From NCBI GenBank assembly GCA_937951485.1, contig CALEDJ010000012.1:1-36176 (forward strand): a DNA stretch of 36,176 nucleotides. The letters are read 5' to 3'. The notes beneath the pieces were generated by a model. The model did not search any database and was not told the origin of the DNA. It saw only the letters and a program-made list of their open reading frames with translations. The position numbers and the translations under genes are program-made. Shown piece by piece: positions 6,589 through 36,176 of the stretch (position 1 is the stretch's first letter; every line of letters begins with the position of its first letter). The stretch comes from an uncultured bacterium. GTDB lineage: Bacteria > Hydrogenedentota > Hydrogenedentia > Hydrogenedentales > CAILVY01.

Positions 6589-8331
6589 ATGCTGGATTTG
6601 CTGCTGCACGGGGGAACGGTGGTTGACGGCACCGGCGCGAAGGGTTTCCGGGCGAATGTCGGGGTGGAGGGAGACCGCGTCGTCTTTGTCGGCGCGGAGG
6701 ACGCGCCTGCAAAGGAGCGCCGCGACGTGACGGGCCGCATCGTGTGTCCCGGCTTCATTGATCCCCATTCCCACGCGGATTTGTCGGTGTTCCGGGAAAA
6801 TCATGCGTCGCTGCTGGAGCCATTGGTACGCCAGGGGATCACCACGTTCATCGGCGGCAATTGCGGCATGGCGATGGCGCCCATCCAGGAGAAACACCGA
6901 GACGCCATCGAAGCCTATGTGAAAGTCTTCACGCAAGTGGACTTGGACCGCGATATCTCCTGGAAAAGCATGGGCGAGTTTTTCGATTTCATTGAAAATC
7001 AGGGCCTTCTGCTTAATGCGGCCATTCTTGCCCCGCATGGATTGTTGCGTCTGAACGAAATTGGACTGGAAATGCGCCTGGCGACCGACGAGGAAATGGA
7101 GAACATGGCCCGCGCGTTGGAAACGGCGTTGGACGAAGGCGCGATAGGGTTGTCCACCGGCCTGCAATACGTTCCCGGAAGCCAGAGTGACACGCGCGAA
7201 CTGCTGCACTTGGGCAGGGTGCTTCGCAAGCATGACGCCATCTTCACCAGTCATTTGCGCAGTTATTCCAGTACCTTGGACAAGGCCATCGCGGAAGTCG
7301 CCGGAGTGGGTGAGCAGTGCGGCATTCGCGCACAGATTTCACATCTGTTCTGGGTGCCGGATTTGGGCTGGGCAGCCCCTCTGCTCCAAAGCATTACCCG
7401 CCTCTTGGCCCGGTTGTCGAAATGGTGGAATGTGCCGATCCCGCTGGACCGTCCCATGCAGGAACGGCTTGACCAGATGATGGCCGCGCGCGCGCGCGGC
7501 GTGGACATTCGTGTGGATTGCATGCCCACCACGACGGGCTTTACGCATGCGCTCGCATTCTTCCCGCCGTGGGCGCTGGAAGGCGGCGGCGAAGCCGTGC
7601 TCAATCGTTTGAAAGACCCGGAAGAGCGCCGCCGCATCCGGCACAGCATCGAGCACGGAAAAATGACCTGGCCGCACACAGGGCCGGATGCCTGGACACT
7701 GAACCTCTTCCGTCTCATGGGCTGGGGCTGCGCCCACATCATGTCCGTCGCGACGGAACGAAACCAGCGTCTCGTGGGCATGAACCTGGTGCAAATCGCG
7801 CGCGAGCGCGGCGTGCATCCCTTCGACGCCATCTGCGATTTGCTTCTGGAGGAAGAGGGTCATGTGCTGGTCTTTGAAAGCATGGCCGAACCCGGCGACG
7901 CCTTCACCGAACGGTCCATTTATGCGGGCATCAAGCATCCGGAGGCCATGGTCTCCACCGACGCAATCCTGATGGGGGAGGGCAAACCATCCACCCTTTT
8001 CTACGGGTGTCACCCGCATTTTATCGCCCGCTATGTGCGCGAAATGCGCCTGCTCCCGATGGAGGCGGCCATCCGGAAGATGACCGGCCTCGTAGCGGAA
8101 CATTTCCGCTTGAAAAACCGGGGCGTCGTGCGCGAAGGCGCCTTTGCCGACCTGGTCGTTTTCGACCCGGACACCATCGCCTCGCGCGCAACGTTCTATG
8201 ACCCCTGTCAATATCCCGAAGGCATTGACTATGTCTTCATCAACGGTCGTTGCGTGGTGGACCGGGGGGCATTTCAGCCGGAGCCGTTGCCGGGCCGCCT
8301 GATGCGCGGCGGCGCATCGGCCTCGTCATAG
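6589..8331 (+). CDS. N-acyl-D-amino-acid deacylase (D-aminoacylase family)
   Basis: A 580-residue amidohydrolase-superfamily enzyme that would release D-amino acids from N-acylated forms, or open a related cyclic amide. The N-terminal beta-sandwich begins LDLLLHGGTVVDGTG. The metal motif is DPHSHAD (His60, His62). Cys92 in GGNCGM, His222 in TSHLRSY and His252 in QISHLFW correspond to the Cys and His metal ligands known from Alcaligenes D-aminoacylase. STDAILMGEG supplies the late Asp. The ATG at 6589 has GGAGG about 9 nt upstream. It has no signal peptide, so it is cytoplasmic. The length is in the upper range of the family, partly because of an insertion around residues 260-300. It is followed by serC on the same strand after about 110 bases, probably a separate unit. 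Specificity (D-aminoacylase, D-glutamate deacylase or hydantoinase-like) is not decided. Confidence 0.88.
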   Translation: MLDLLLHGGTVVDGTGAKGFRANVGVEGDRVVFVGAEDAPAKERRDVTGRIVCPGFIDPHSHADLSVFRENHASLLEPLVRQGITTFIGGNCGMAMAPIQEKHRDAIEAYVKVFTQVDLDRDISWKSMGEFFDFIENQGLLLNAAILAPHGLLRLNEIGLEMRLATDEEMENMARALETALDEGAIGLSTGLQYVPGSQSDTRELLHLGRVLRKHDAIFTSHLRSYSSTLDKAIAEVAGVGEQCGIRAQISHLFWVPDLGWAAPLLQSITRLLARLSKWWNVPIPLDRPMQERLDQMMAARARGVDIRVDCMPTTTGFTHALAFFPPWALEGGGEAVLNRLKDPEERRRIRHSIEHGKMTWPHTGPDAWTLNLFRLMGWGCAHIMSVATERNQRLVGMNLVQIARERGVHPFDAICDLLLEEEGHVLVFESMAEPGDAFTERSIYAGIKHPEAMVSTDAILMGEGKPSTLFYGCHPHFIARYVREMRLLPMEAAIRKMTGLVAEHFRLKNRGVVREGAFADLVVFDPDTIASRATFYDPCQYPEGIDYVFINGRCVVDRGAFQPEPLPGRLMRGGASASS

Positions 8332-10153: not shown

Positions 10154-10297
10154 CCTCGTTACACCGATCGCGCGGCGCAACGCTTGACCGAGGCGCTTTG
10201 TGCGCGGGAACGACGCACTCCCATGAACGCGCTATCGCATCCTGTGACGCGGGAGCGTCGCGGTGGTGCGTTGCACCGCAGGCGTGGTGTAACGAGG
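10154..10297. mobile_element. Small inverted-repeat element truncating hicA
   Basis: A 144-bp stretch is bounded by perfect 12-bp inverted ends, CCTCGTTACACC (10154-10165) and GGTGTAACGAGG (10286-10297). Its right half, 10230-10298, is about 85% identical by eye to the reverse complement of 14732-14803. It contains the hairpin GTTGCACC / GGTGTAAC (10270-10293), copy 3 of the short family. It encodes nothing convincing and so resembles a MITE or REP cluster. No target duplication was identified. Confidence 0.5.
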
Positions 10298-14731: not shown

Positions 14732-14803
14732 TTCCTCGTTACACCGCTTCTGCGGTGTAACGCACCCCCCCGCCACGCTCCGGCGTCGCGGGATGCGGCA
14801 GCG
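14732..14803 (-). repeat. Hairpin repeat, copy 4, with GC-rich tail
   Basis: The core 14737-14762 is CGTTACACCGC, loop TTCT, GCGGTGTAACG: an 11-bp perfect stem with a 4-nt loop. The following ~40 bases match, in reverse complement, 10230-10298 (CGCATCCCGCGACGC, GGAGCGTGGCG, GGTGCGTTACACCGC). No T-run is present, so it is not a classical terminator. Confidence 0.75.
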
Positions 14804-14811
14804 CGTTTCAA

Positions 14812-14988
14812 AGAACAATCCCAAACATGCGCCTTTTGTCTCGCGCTTTCAGCGCCAATATTCCGACAATCGTCTTTTTCCAGGGCTTCGCCCTGGGCCG
14901 AATTCTTTCGCGCCTTCGGCGCTTTTTCTCCGGTTCCTATTCCGCACTCCGCATGCCGCATCACACATGCCGCATCCCGCATGCCGCA
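14812..14988 (-). repeat. Dispersed intergenic repeat element, copy B
   Basis: Inverse of the element at 6254-6408. Reading on the - strand: degenerate GCGGCAT/GCGGGAT heptamers, ACCGGAGAAAAAGCGCC, GAAGGCGC, GGCCCAGGGCGAAGCCCTGG, GATTGTCGG, GGCGCTGAAAGCGC, ACAAAAGGCG and ATTGTTCTTT. The strong stems AGGGC/GCCCT and GCGCC/GGCGC are kept in both copies. Confidence 0.8.
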
Positions 14989-32085: not shown

Positions 32086-34371
32086 ATGACGAATAAAGAG
32101 GGAAAACAGGTTTTCAGACGGAACGCGGCATTCATGCTCGCGGCACGGACGGCATTGGTGTTGAGTGCGGCGGCGTTGTTGCGTTGCGTGCCGGTGGACC
32201 CGGCGCCTGTGCCGGACCCGAATCCGTCGGTCCGGCTGTTCCAGGCGATGTTCAAATACCCGACAGGAAAGGAACCCTTCGCGCTGGCGGCGGTGGACCT
32301 CGACGGCGATGGGCGCGTGGATATCATCACGGCGAATCAGGCGGCGAACACGGTTTCCGTGCTGCCGGCCAGGTCTCAGGGGGGATTCTCCAGTCATGTG
32401 GAATACCCCGTGGGAGAAAGCCCGGGGGCCCTCGCAGTCGGCGACTTCAACGGTGACGGCATCCCGGACATCGCCGTGGCGAACCAGGTCTCGCACGACG
32501 TGTCCATCCTGATCGGCGGGGGCGAAGGGAAATTCGGCGTGGAGGAACGCTTCGCGCTGGCCGAGGGCGCGCGGCCGCTCGCGTTGGTCGCAGCGGATTT
32601 CAATGGCGACGGCGCATTGGATCTGGCGACGGCGGATTTCGGCCTGGACACGGTTTCGGTATTGTTGGGCGTGGGGGATGGCGCCTTCGGAGAAGCCGAA
32701 ACGCATCCCGTGGACGCCGCGCCGCGCTGGGTTATCACGGCAGACCTCGACGGCGACGGCATTCTGGACTTGGTGACGGCCAACCGCGACAGCAACAATC
32801 TGTCTGTGCTCACAGGCGTGGGGGATGGCGGGTTTCTGGACGCGGTGCATTGGCCCACGGGCGACGCGCCGCGCACGGTGGCGGTCGCGGACATCAACGG
32901 CGACGGCATTCCGGACCTCGTCACCAGCAATCCCGGCTCCGGCGACATCGCGTTGCTGCGCGGCATGGGCGGGGGACGCTTCGGCGTGGCGACGCGCTAT
33001 ACCGTGCCGCGCTATCTGCCCACCCGCTTTACGATGGCCGATTTCAACGGCGACGGTGTGTCCGACCTCGCCGTGCTGCTTTTTACAGGCGGCCCGGATG
33101 CATTCTCGCCGGGTTTGGTTGGCGTGTTTAATGGCGACCGCGTGGCGGGATTCACCGGCCCGCGCATTTTCGGTATCGGCACGCAGCCTTTTGACATCAT
33201 CGCCGCCCGGATTGATAGCGATGCCCGCCCGGACCTGGTCACCGCCGACGCGGGCGCGGACCAGATTTCGGTCGCCTATGGCAAGACCGGCGGAGGCTTC
33301 GAGACGGATGAGCGCTTTTTTGTGGGCGATACCCCCCGTGTGGCGGCGGCGGCAGACCTCAACAATGATAAACGTCTGGACCTGGTGGTCGTCAACCAGG
33401 GTTCGCGAGACTTCTCCGTTCTGCTGGGAAACGGCAATGGCGCTTTCCAGCCGGAACAGCGCACAAGGCTCCAGGACACCCCGCGCGCGCTTGCGATTGC
33501 GGACTTGAACAGTGATGGCAACCAGGACGTCGTTATCACCAACCTCTTCCTGAATCGCGTGTCGGTATTTCTTGGGCGAGGCGACGGCGCTTTCCAGCCG
33601 GAACAACGCTATTCGGTGCGGCCTCCCGGCGTCAGTGGCATGGCCCACCCGCGTTCCGTCGCCATTGCGGATTTGGATGGCGACGGCTATCCGGACATCG
33701 TTACCGGAAACGCCTACAGCGACGCCATCGCAGTATTGCGTGGTAGAGGCGACGGAACATTTGAAGACGCGACGGAGTTTTTCGCCGGCAATTTTCCCCT
33801 CGACGTACAATTGGTCGACCTGGACCGCGACGGTATCCTTGATGTGATCTTTGTCAGCACCAATGATCCGGATAACCCCTCCGACCGCGCCCTGCCGCGC
33901 GTCGTGCGGCGCTTCGGCATGGGCGACGGTACCTTCGATGAGAGCACCAACCAGCGCTATGAAACCGGAAACGGCCCGCGCGGGCTGGCCGTGGGCGACC
34001 TGAACCGCAACGGCTCGTTCGATGCCGTTACCGTCCATACCGGCGACAACAGCGTCTATGTGCTTGCAGGCCGCGCCGGCGGCAAATTCACCCGGGGTGA
34101 GCGCCGACGCATGGGTGACAGTCCCAACACTGTCTCCCTGGCCGACCTGAACCGCAATGGTCTTCTGGACATCGTCACCACCAACGATATCAACGTGGTA
34201 TCCGTTAGTCTCAACCGGGGAAACCTCATATTCTCCTCGTTCATGAACTTCCCGGCGGGTTCTCAGCCTATTGGGGGCATCCTCGCGGATGTCAACGGCG
34301 ATGGACGCCCCGACGCCATCCTTTGCAACAGACTTACCGGCGACATTTCAGTCCTTCTGGGCGCTTTCTGA
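32086..34371 (+). CDS. Exported VCBS/FG-GAP repeat protein
   Basis: A 761-residue surface or secreted protein. The N-terminus has a hydrophobic signal (AAFMLAARTALVLSAAALLR) followed by Cys34; this may be a lipoprotein anchor, but Arg before the Cys is unusual for a lipobox. From residue 71 I count 14 calcium-binding D-x-D/N-x-D-G loops (e.g. DLDGDGRVD, DFNGDGIPD, DINGDGIPD, DVNGDGRPD), each with a following strand, spaced about 45-55 residues. This is the VCBS/FG-GAP beta-propeller repeat, used in adhesion and carbohydrate binding. Three later repeats have degenerate loops (RIDSDARPD, DLNRNGSFD, DLNRNGLLD). The start has only a weak GGATG signal. No catalytic domain was seen. It is divergent from the hypothetical gene at 31171. 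Confidence 0.88.
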   Translation: MTNKEGKQVFRRNAAFMLAARTALVLSAAALLRCVPVDPAPVPDPNPSVRLFQAMFKYPTGKEPFALAAVDLDGDGRVDIITANQAANTVSVLPARSQGGFSSHVEYPVGESPGALAVGDFNGDGIPDIAVANQVSHDVSILIGGGEGKFGVEERFALAEGARPLALVAADFNGDGALDLATADFGLDTVSVLLGVGDGAFGEAETHPVDAAPRWVITADLDGDGILDLVTANRDSNNLSVLTGVGDGGFLDAVHWPTGDAPRTVAVADINGDGIPDLVTSNPGSGDIALLRGMGGGRFGVATRYTVPRYLPTRFTMADFNGDGVSDLAVLLFTGGPDAFSPGLVGVFNGDRVAGFTGPRIFGIGTQPFDIIAARIDSDARPDLVTADAGADQISVAYGKTGGGFETDERFFVGDTPRVAAAADLNNDKRLDLVVVNQGSRDFSVLLGNGNGAFQPEQRTRLQDTPRALAIADLNSDGNQDVVITNLFLNRVSVFLGRGDGAFQPEQRYSVRPPGVSGMAHPRSVAIADLDGDGYPDIVTGNAYSDAIAVLRGRGDGTFEDATEFFAGNFPLDVQLVDLDRDGILDVIFVSTNDPDNPSDRALPRVVRRFGMGDGTFDESTNQRYETGNGPRGLAVGDLNRNGSFDAVTVHTGDNSVYVLAGRAGGKFTRGERRRMGDSPNTVSLADLNRNGLLDIVTTNDINVVSVSLNRGNLIFSSFMNFPAGSQPIGGILADVNGDGRPDAILCNRLTGDISVLLGAF

Positions 34372-34574
34372 CATGCACTTTTTGCCGGCCCATGGTCAGC
34401 GCGCGTGAAAAAAGGCACTATAACAGCCCATGACTCAGTGCCCGCTGCAACCCGAACGTGTGCGGACGCAGGAAACAACGTTACATCATTGAACATAGTT
34501 TACAGGTATTTTGGTCTATTTTATCTTTTTTTATACATAATGACAAAATTATTTTATCAACTTTCGGTTGTTAC

Positions 34575-34604
34575 TTGACAGTAAGAGAAATATGATGGTA
34601 TTAT
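34575..34604 (+). promoter_or_regulatory. Strong sigma-70-type promoter
   Basis: TTGACA (34575-34580), an 18-nt spacer, and TATTAT (34599-34604). The -35 box is perfect and the -10 matches five of six. The upstream 80 bases are AT-rich with several A/T tracts, like an UP element. Transcription would start near 34611, about 277 bases before the lipoprotein start codon. Confidence 0.7.
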
Positions 34605-34610
34605 CTGATC

Positions 34611-34887
34611 AAGGGCTGTGGGGTAGGTACATTTTATTCAAAAGTGAAGGTGTTTGTAACTTACCCCGGAGGGGAATAACTTTTGTGGAGGAAAGGCTCC
34701 GATTCGCCGAAGGATATCCCCAATCCCGTTTTGTGAAGTGTGGGGTATATGTGGCGCACGTGACATCGGTATGTGTCACGGGTGCGTGATTGTACTTTTC
34801 GCATTATTGTAGTGCGAAAAGAGAGGGTTGAGGCTGTGTTTGAGGGTATTAACCCAGAGAACCAACTGTTTTAGGAGGGCTGTTCCC
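34611..34887 (+). ncRNA. Long structured 5' leader, possible riboregulator
   Basis: Stems visible in order: (1) GGGGTAGGTACA (34620-34631) with TGTAACTTACCCC (34655-34667), 11-12 pairs with one bulged A; (2) GGGGAATA (34671-34678) with TATCCCC (34715-34721), enclosing GGAG-GAAAGG-CTCC (34687-34700); (3) GTGACA (34760-34765) with TGTCAC (34774-34779), extendable outward; (4) CTTTTCGCA (34795-34803) with TGCGAAAAG (34813-34821), 9 perfect pairs. Stem 2 competes with ATATCCCC (34714-34721) pairing to GGGGTATAT (34742-34750). No known riboswitch class is recognised. No terminator U-run is seen, so control would be on translation or stability. The AGGAGG Shine-Dalgarno is at 34873-34878. Confidence 0.45.
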
Positions 34888-36176
34888 ATGTTTGTCCATT
34901 GTCGTTGGCTTGTGTTGTTGGCGCTTTCGGCTGTCTTGCTTACCGGTTGTCCGTTGCCGCCTGGATCGGGGGAAACCACTTGTGTGAATCCCAACGTGCT
35001 GAATTTCGGCAGTGATGCCACGCAGATGAGTTTCAAGATATGGAATTGCGGACCGGTTTGGCCACCCACATTGCTGATCTGGCACGCGGTTCCTCAGGAA
35101 CCGTGGATTACTGCGCTTCCCAAGAAGGGAATTAGCGGGACCTTATTCTTGAGATACCGCACGGTTACTGTAACTGTTGACAGGTCTCAACTGGCCCCCG
35201 GCCTTCACGAGGGGTATATCGCCACGGGAAATCAAGACCCTTATGGCGGCGTCAAAATGGTGAAGGTCATTGTTTCCGTCGAAGGCGGCGAAGGCGAGGG
35301 CGAAGGCGAGGGCGAGGGTGAAGGCGAGGGTGAAGGCGAGGGTGAAGGTGAGGGCGAGGGCGAAGGCGAGGGTGAAGGCGAGGGTGAACCCGAATGTCCC
35401 GTTCTGTGTGAACTGGAATGTGTCAGCGCAGGCATTATCGCCGGCACTGCCCCCGCTCTGAGCAATGTTTATGCATTGTTGGGTCTTGATCCGCTGACCA
35501 CGGATGCAGATGGAAACGACATGGTTGACCTGGCGCATATGCAATTGGTGGATGCCCTCCTTGCAAATCCGGATGTGTCCACCCATTGCTGTGTTCTTGC
35601 CGCATGGAATTTTAACCACAGCGTGGTGAATGCGCTGTTACCCCCATTCCATTTCCTGTATGGGATGGTGTCCGGCGGTCGCTCAACAGTGCTCAAGTTG
35701 CTCACCGGCCTTGTTACCATTGCCGAGCCGTCCGTCCTTGTCACTTTCGAGGATGCGATGGAAGAACTCATTGGTGTTGAGATTGACCTCGATGACTTCG
35801 ATTTGAGCGCCGGCCAGTACTTGGCCTCTGATGGCGACGCAGACATGGACGGTGTCTGTAATCTGGCCGAATACAACGCTATTGTGTCCGGTCCGGACGA
35901 TTTCGCTGCTTTCGTCTTTGCAGCCCTTGAACCCACCCTCGCTGTGAACGGTGGTGGCTGCTATCCGCCTTGCTTTGAGGCCGGCGAAGGTGAAGGCGAA
36001 GGCGAAGGTGAGGGTGAAGGCGAAGGCGAGGGCGAAGGCGAGGGCGAAGGCGAAGGCGAGGGCGAAGGCGAAGGTGAGGGTGAAGGCGAAGGTGAAGGCG
36101 AAGGCGAAGGTGAAGGCGAAGGCGAAGGCGAGGGCGAAGGCGAGGGCGAAGGCGAAGGCGAGGGCGAAGGCGAAGG
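34888..36176 (+). CDS. Lipoprotein with (Gly-Glu)n linkers (continues beyond window)
   Basis: Open from the ATG at 34888 to the window end, at least 429 residues; AGGAGG lies about 9 nt upstream. The signal ends in LLTG-Cys21, a perfect lipobox. Residues ~31-131 look like a BACON/Ig-like beta-sandwich domain: VNPNVLNFGS at the start, VTVTVDRSQLAPGLHEGYIA and VKMVKVIVSVEG at the end. A Gly-Glu block follows (~135-167). Then comes a Cys-containing helical domain (~168-365) with EF-hand/dockerin-like acidic loops TTDADGNDMVDL and SDGDADMDGVCNLAEY, and a second Gly-Glu block starts at ~366 and is still running at the end. (Gly-Glu)n linkers are known in Hydrogenedentota- and Lentisphaera-type surface proteins. 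Such linkers would be extended and strongly acidic. The function is unknown; cell-surface binding or scaffolding is inferred. Confidence 0.8.
   Translation, partial: MFVHCRWLVLLALSAVLLTGCPLPPGSGETTCVNPNVLNFGSDATQMSFKIWNCGPVWPPTLLIWHAVPQEPWITALPKKGISGTLFLRYRTVTVTVDRSQLAPGLHEGYIATGNQDPYGGVKMVKVIVSVEGGEGEGEGEGEGEGEGEGEGEGEGEGEGEGEGEGEPECPVLCELECVSAGIIAGTAPALSNVYALLGLDPLTTDADGNDMVDLAHMQLVDALLANPDVSTHCCVLAAWNFNHSVVNALLPPFHFLYGMVSGGRSTVLKLLTGLVTIAEPSVLVTFEDAMEELIGVEIDLDDFDLSAGQYLASDGDADMDGVCNLAEYNAIVSGPDDFAAFVFAALEPTLAVNGGGCYPPCFEAGEGEGEGEGEGEGEGEGEGEGEGEGEGEGEGEGEGEGEGEGEGEGEGEGEGEGEGEGEGEGEGE
35290..35388 (+). repeat. Gly-Glu-coding hexanucleotide array, block 1
   Basis: About 16 in-frame GAR-GGY units (GAAGGC, GAGGGC, GAGGGT mixed). 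Only the third codon positions vary, which suggests slippage expansion followed by synonymous drift. The reverse strand would encode Ser-Pro repeats; this is a shadow. Confidence 0.9.
35983..36176 (+). repeat. Gly-Glu-coding hexanucleotide array, block 2 (cut by window end)
   Basis: At least 32 GAR-GGY units continuing to the last base. Longer and more regular than block 1. Its true length is unknown because the window ends within it. Confidence 0.9.

Follow-up and report, generated by a model that had tools for sequence, protein, structure and literature searches.

What purpose is served by a long and heavily folded leader in front of the gene for a surface lipoprotein in an uncultured member of the Hydrogenedentota: does it sense a signal and switch the gene, or does it simply help the message to persist and to be translated? 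The question arises at one end of contig 12 of a 4.5 Mb genome assembled in 77 contigs. The window that we analyzed is this whole stretch of 36,176 nucleotides, and the features that concern us are collected in table 1. Our preferred reading, to which we give a probability of roughly 60%, is that the leader is an ordinary, lineage-specific, long structured 5' untranslated region (5' UTR) that would support the stability or the translation of the mRNA of an abundant surface lipoprotein.

The lipoprotein gene is interrupted because the contig ends, by an assembly break, within its (Gly-Glu)n coding repeat or linker (35284-36176), a repeat that is common to many proteins of the same genome. The 5' neighbor of the leader is the gene of an FG-GAP repeat protein, probably a lipoprotein, whose stop lies at 34371. 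The DNA immediately before the promoter is AT-rich (25-34% GC). The position of the promoter places the predicted start of transcription near 34608-34612. The first-pass annotation had proposed that a strong promoter defines a leader of ~277 nt, and this proposal stands: the promoter is close to the consensus and has the TG extension, the start being deduced from the sequence.

Table 1. Promoter, leader elements, candidate reading frames and gene at the lipoprotein locus (positions of the window; hairpins are predicted)
Feature	Position	Strand	Description
Sigma-70-like promoter	34575-34604	+	TTGACA-18-TATTAT, extended -10 (TG); 11/12 consensus positions
Predicted 5' untranslated leader	34611-34887	+	~277 nt; fold z -3.86
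Hairpin H1	34619-34668	+	GGGGUAGGUACA ... UGUAACUUACCCC; pair probability ~0.95; z -2.46 for 34611-34670
Hairpin H2	34671-34721	+	Preferred fold for the C4 at 34718; probability 0.84 at 37 C, coding start included
Weak hairpin H3	34723-34746	+	AUCCCG ... GUGUGGGGU; contains the G4 at 34742; predicted pairing
Hairpin H4	34755-34785	+	GUGACAUCGGUAUGUGUCAC core; z -2.06
Hairpin H5	34795-34821	+	12 bp, loop of 3; strongest single element; z -5.36 for 34790-34825
Hairpin H6	34825-34855	+	GGGUUGA ... UUAACCC; pairing 0.35 in longer context
Candidate frame 1	34685-34789	+	GTG start; behind GGAGGGG at 34668-34674; codon score z 1.19
Candidate frame 2	34773-34874	+	GTG start; 33 codons; TAG stop adjoins or overlaps the Shine-Dalgarno region
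Shine-Dalgarno	34874-34879	+	AGGAGG; followed by ATG 34888
Lipoprotein gene	34888-36176	+	ATG start; signal peptide, lipobox LTGC, two unnamed domains, (Gly-Glu)n linkers; truncated by contig end

Taken as a whole, the 277-nt leader is predicted to fold considerably better than its dinucleotide shuffles (-98.5 kcal/mol), and its z was the lowest among 118 segments of equal length drawn from the window (mean -0.26, sd 1.29). These values, like all the leader folds, pairing probabilities and accessibilities given here, are model energies. Most of the signal comes from H5, whose predicted pairing is 1.0 at every temperature computed; H1 and H4 also contribute, and the pairing of H4 falls to 0.14 once the model takes in 73 nt of coding sequence. 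In these models the excess signal is located in independent local hairpins and not in two competing folds. The earlier description, which had a long and structured leader precede a lipoprotein gene, is supported; the clean hairpins that it placed before the Shine-Dalgarno are present as well, although they number three (H4, H5 and H6) rather than two. Since some 7-10 nt between the predicted start and H1 should be single-stranded, the leader would lack a clean 5'-terminal stem-loop, which speaks against the preferred reading. The same sampling of stretches on the + strand also gave strongly negative values at 401-677 (z -4.21) and at 8001-8277 (z -3.96).

The opposite strand of the leader likewise folds above chance (z -4.10), and because of this a part of the fold signal reflects inverted-repeat DNA and is not proof of selection on an RNA. 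The next alternative after the structured 5' UTR is built on this observation: the inverted repeats at 34755-34785 and 34795-34821 would serve a regulator as binding sites on the DNA, or would be decayed remnants of mobile elements or repeats, and the folding of the RNA would be a by-product. H5 is indeed a near-perfect DNA palindrome; however, it is unique, no second copy having been found in its own genome, and it sits within the predicted transcript, over 180 bp from its start. Moreover, the abundant palindrome of this genome, GTTACACCGC-N4-GCGGTGTAAC, has no CCGC/GCGG core in common with H4 or H5. We consider this DNA-level explanation unlikely, but it is the first to which we would turn if the structured 5' UTR were abandoned.

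The abundant palindrome itself appears to be this lineage's version of a REP/BIME-type element. With at most three mismatches it has 69 matches per strand genome-wide, against 0 for a reversed control. Its copies in the window are at 681-704, 10158-10181, 10270-10293 and 14738-14761, and several copies are paired, with ~35-120 nt between them. An Acido-Lenti-1 RNA (RF01687; 41.4 bits, above gathering) is located at 14879-14923, ~120 nt from one of the palindromes.

The front of the leader had originally attracted attention by its alternating blocks of G and C, which were thought to form mutually exclusive pairings and so to give the RNA at least two folds. The positions assigned to the blocks are exact (GGGG at 34620, 34671 and 34742; CCCC at 34664 and 34718), but the two folds are not supported. 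At least three GGGG and at least two CCCC runs occur in 9% of the shuffles of this G-rich leader, and the region of the claimed alternative pairings (34669-34760) folds no better than chance (z +0.21). At 37 C, with the coding start included, the pairing maxima reach 1.0 for G34620:C34664 and 0.84 for G34671:C34718, as opposed to 0.04 for C34718:G34742; one fold therefore dominates. The alternation of G4 and C4 blocks in G-rich leaders should, as a caution, not be taken for a switch.

It is on such a pair of folds that a new riboswitch, or another ligand-sensing element, would depend, with the front part of the leader controlling access to the Shine-Dalgarno. The unusually stable overall fold is compatible with this idea, as is the behavior of the isolated leader, in which 34671-34684 may pair with 34875-34887, the region of the Shine-Dalgarno (probability 0.44-0.64), in what would be a plausible off state; however, the pairing of 34671-34678 with 34880-34887 drops to 0.0 when those 73 nt of the coding region are part of the model, and the front region and its block alternation are at chance level. 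Furthermore, the gene encodes a lipoprotein and is neither metabolic nor transport-related. The number of terminators found, 2, compares with 2.3 expected by chance.

A riboswitch might also be expected to have recognizable relatives, and here the searches were uniformly negative. The leader matches no Rfam 15 family at the gathering score, and a scan of 34400-35000 gave nothing meaningful even at E values up to 10, in agreement with the first-pass annotation, which had recognized no known riboswitch class. In DNA searches of 60 related genomes and of 68 genomes of the phylum, the leader was absent from the 67 of the larger set besides its host; there were only short, chance-like pieces, concentrated in 34682-34732, where the leader is GC-rich and most like the rest of the genome. 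A covariance search was run with one model for the front half (R2) and one for the back half (R1), each built from a single sequence, so that distant relatives could escape detection. Over the phylum genomes and over lipoprotein loci these models recovered the window itself and otherwise only R1 matches judged to be chance (19 bits with an E value of 0.07, and 6.7 bits). The leaders of more distant paralogs and homologs gave no match either, and the collections searched held no related leader to compare. Neither DNA searches nor the covariance models found the leader elsewhere in its own genome, a distant DNA search of plasmids and phages found no match to it, and an exact scan of viral contigs found no H5. 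A literature search for riboswitches in Hydrogenedentes gave no paper in the collection covered.

The protein, by contrast with its leader, does have a relative. A scan of the genome collection with its N-terminal domain revealed a single ortholog, 51% identical over that domain, in a Candidatus Hydrogenedentes MAG assigned to the same family, which places the host in that phylum. The ortholog's promoter (TTGACA-17-TAAAAT, 11/12) ends 99 nt before its ATG and is equally strong, which would fit constitutive high expression. Its leader of ~95 nt is not unusually structured (z +0.89), does not align with that of the window (shuffle chance 0.33) and lacks its stems. A common start after the -10, CTGAT...GGGCTG, was considered and rejected (shuffle chance 0.28). 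Since the ortholog's leader is unrelated and not unusually structured, the protein family as a whole can do without the leader. The case shows that an extended, folded leader may be confined to a single genome even when an ortholog shares the protein and the strength of its promoter. The lack of relatives in the phylum and in the host genome, of an Rfam match and of such a leader in the ortholog all weigh against the riboswitch, which we regard as improbable.

We give equally little credence to control of translation through a short upstream open reading frame. Both candidate frames are open, and the codon usage of the second (z 2.1) falls where genuine coding fragments do (mean 2.6, sd 1.2); nevertheless, several frames were tried, the first has only the modest score given in table 1, and the second has neither a Shine-Dalgarno of its own nor a relative in the phylum. 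The small leader frames are unconvincing. An orphan cis-regulatory RNA of an unsampled Hydrogenedentota genus, which would sense a signal and tune the (Gly-Glu)n surface lipoprotein, we rank below both of these, as a poor prospect. Least probable is an RNA thermometer that hides the Shine-Dalgarno at low temperature: this sequence is predicted to be partly paired at 37 C, but its accessibility of 0.24 is within the range of shuffles (mean 0.31, 5-95% range 0.12-0.57) and shifts little on warming (0.19 at 15 C, 0.34 at 60 C).

Among the three functions initially suggested for the leader, the stability element remains the best. The riboswitch and the thermometer find no support: one fold dominates, no relatives turned up in the 68 genomes of the phylum, and accessibility is nearly flat. 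As an ordinary structured 5' UTR, the leader would act in a simple manner. The strong promoter would yield an mRNA whose leader folds locally into one hairpin after another, the firmest of them H1 and H5; these hairpins would probably slow ribonuclease attack and probably keep the Shine-Dalgarno moderately accessible, and the outcome would be a steady high expression of the surface lipoprotein. The analysis establishes the promoter match, the surplus of predicted folding stability, the Shine-Dalgarno and, in the genomes searched, the absence of relatives; we infer the synthesis of the predicted RNA and a role for its hairpins, most likely through mRNA stability or basal translation. Among Hydrogenedentota the leader is a candidate signal for strong expression; its significance beyond this gene is small.

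How does such a leader compare with known systems? With RNA thermometers such as ROSE and fourU it shares a partly paired Shine-Dalgarno, but it matches neither in Rfam and is predicted to open only slightly between 15 and 60 C. Like the riboswitches of any Rfam 15 class it is a structured RNA between promoter and Shine-Dalgarno; unlike them it has no family match, no conserved relatives and no supported second fold. The nearest parallel is the ompA-type leader, which is long, carries hairpins and combines a strong promoter and a Shine-Dalgarno with an abundant surface protein; the same set is predicted here, in a leader about twice as long. Stable hairpins, as found in 5' UTR stabilizers of mRNAs, are predicted here in H1 and H5. 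In contrast to the ompA type, the first hairpin would begin only ~7-10 nt after the predicted start of transcription, and no sequence relation between the two is to be expected. Protective stem-loops and 5' UTRs of mRNAs, that of ompA included, have been well described (PMC7509114; primary work is listed in PMC3997798). It is the E. coli ompA-type stabilizer, with its hairpins, that the leader of this lipoprotein gene would most resemble.
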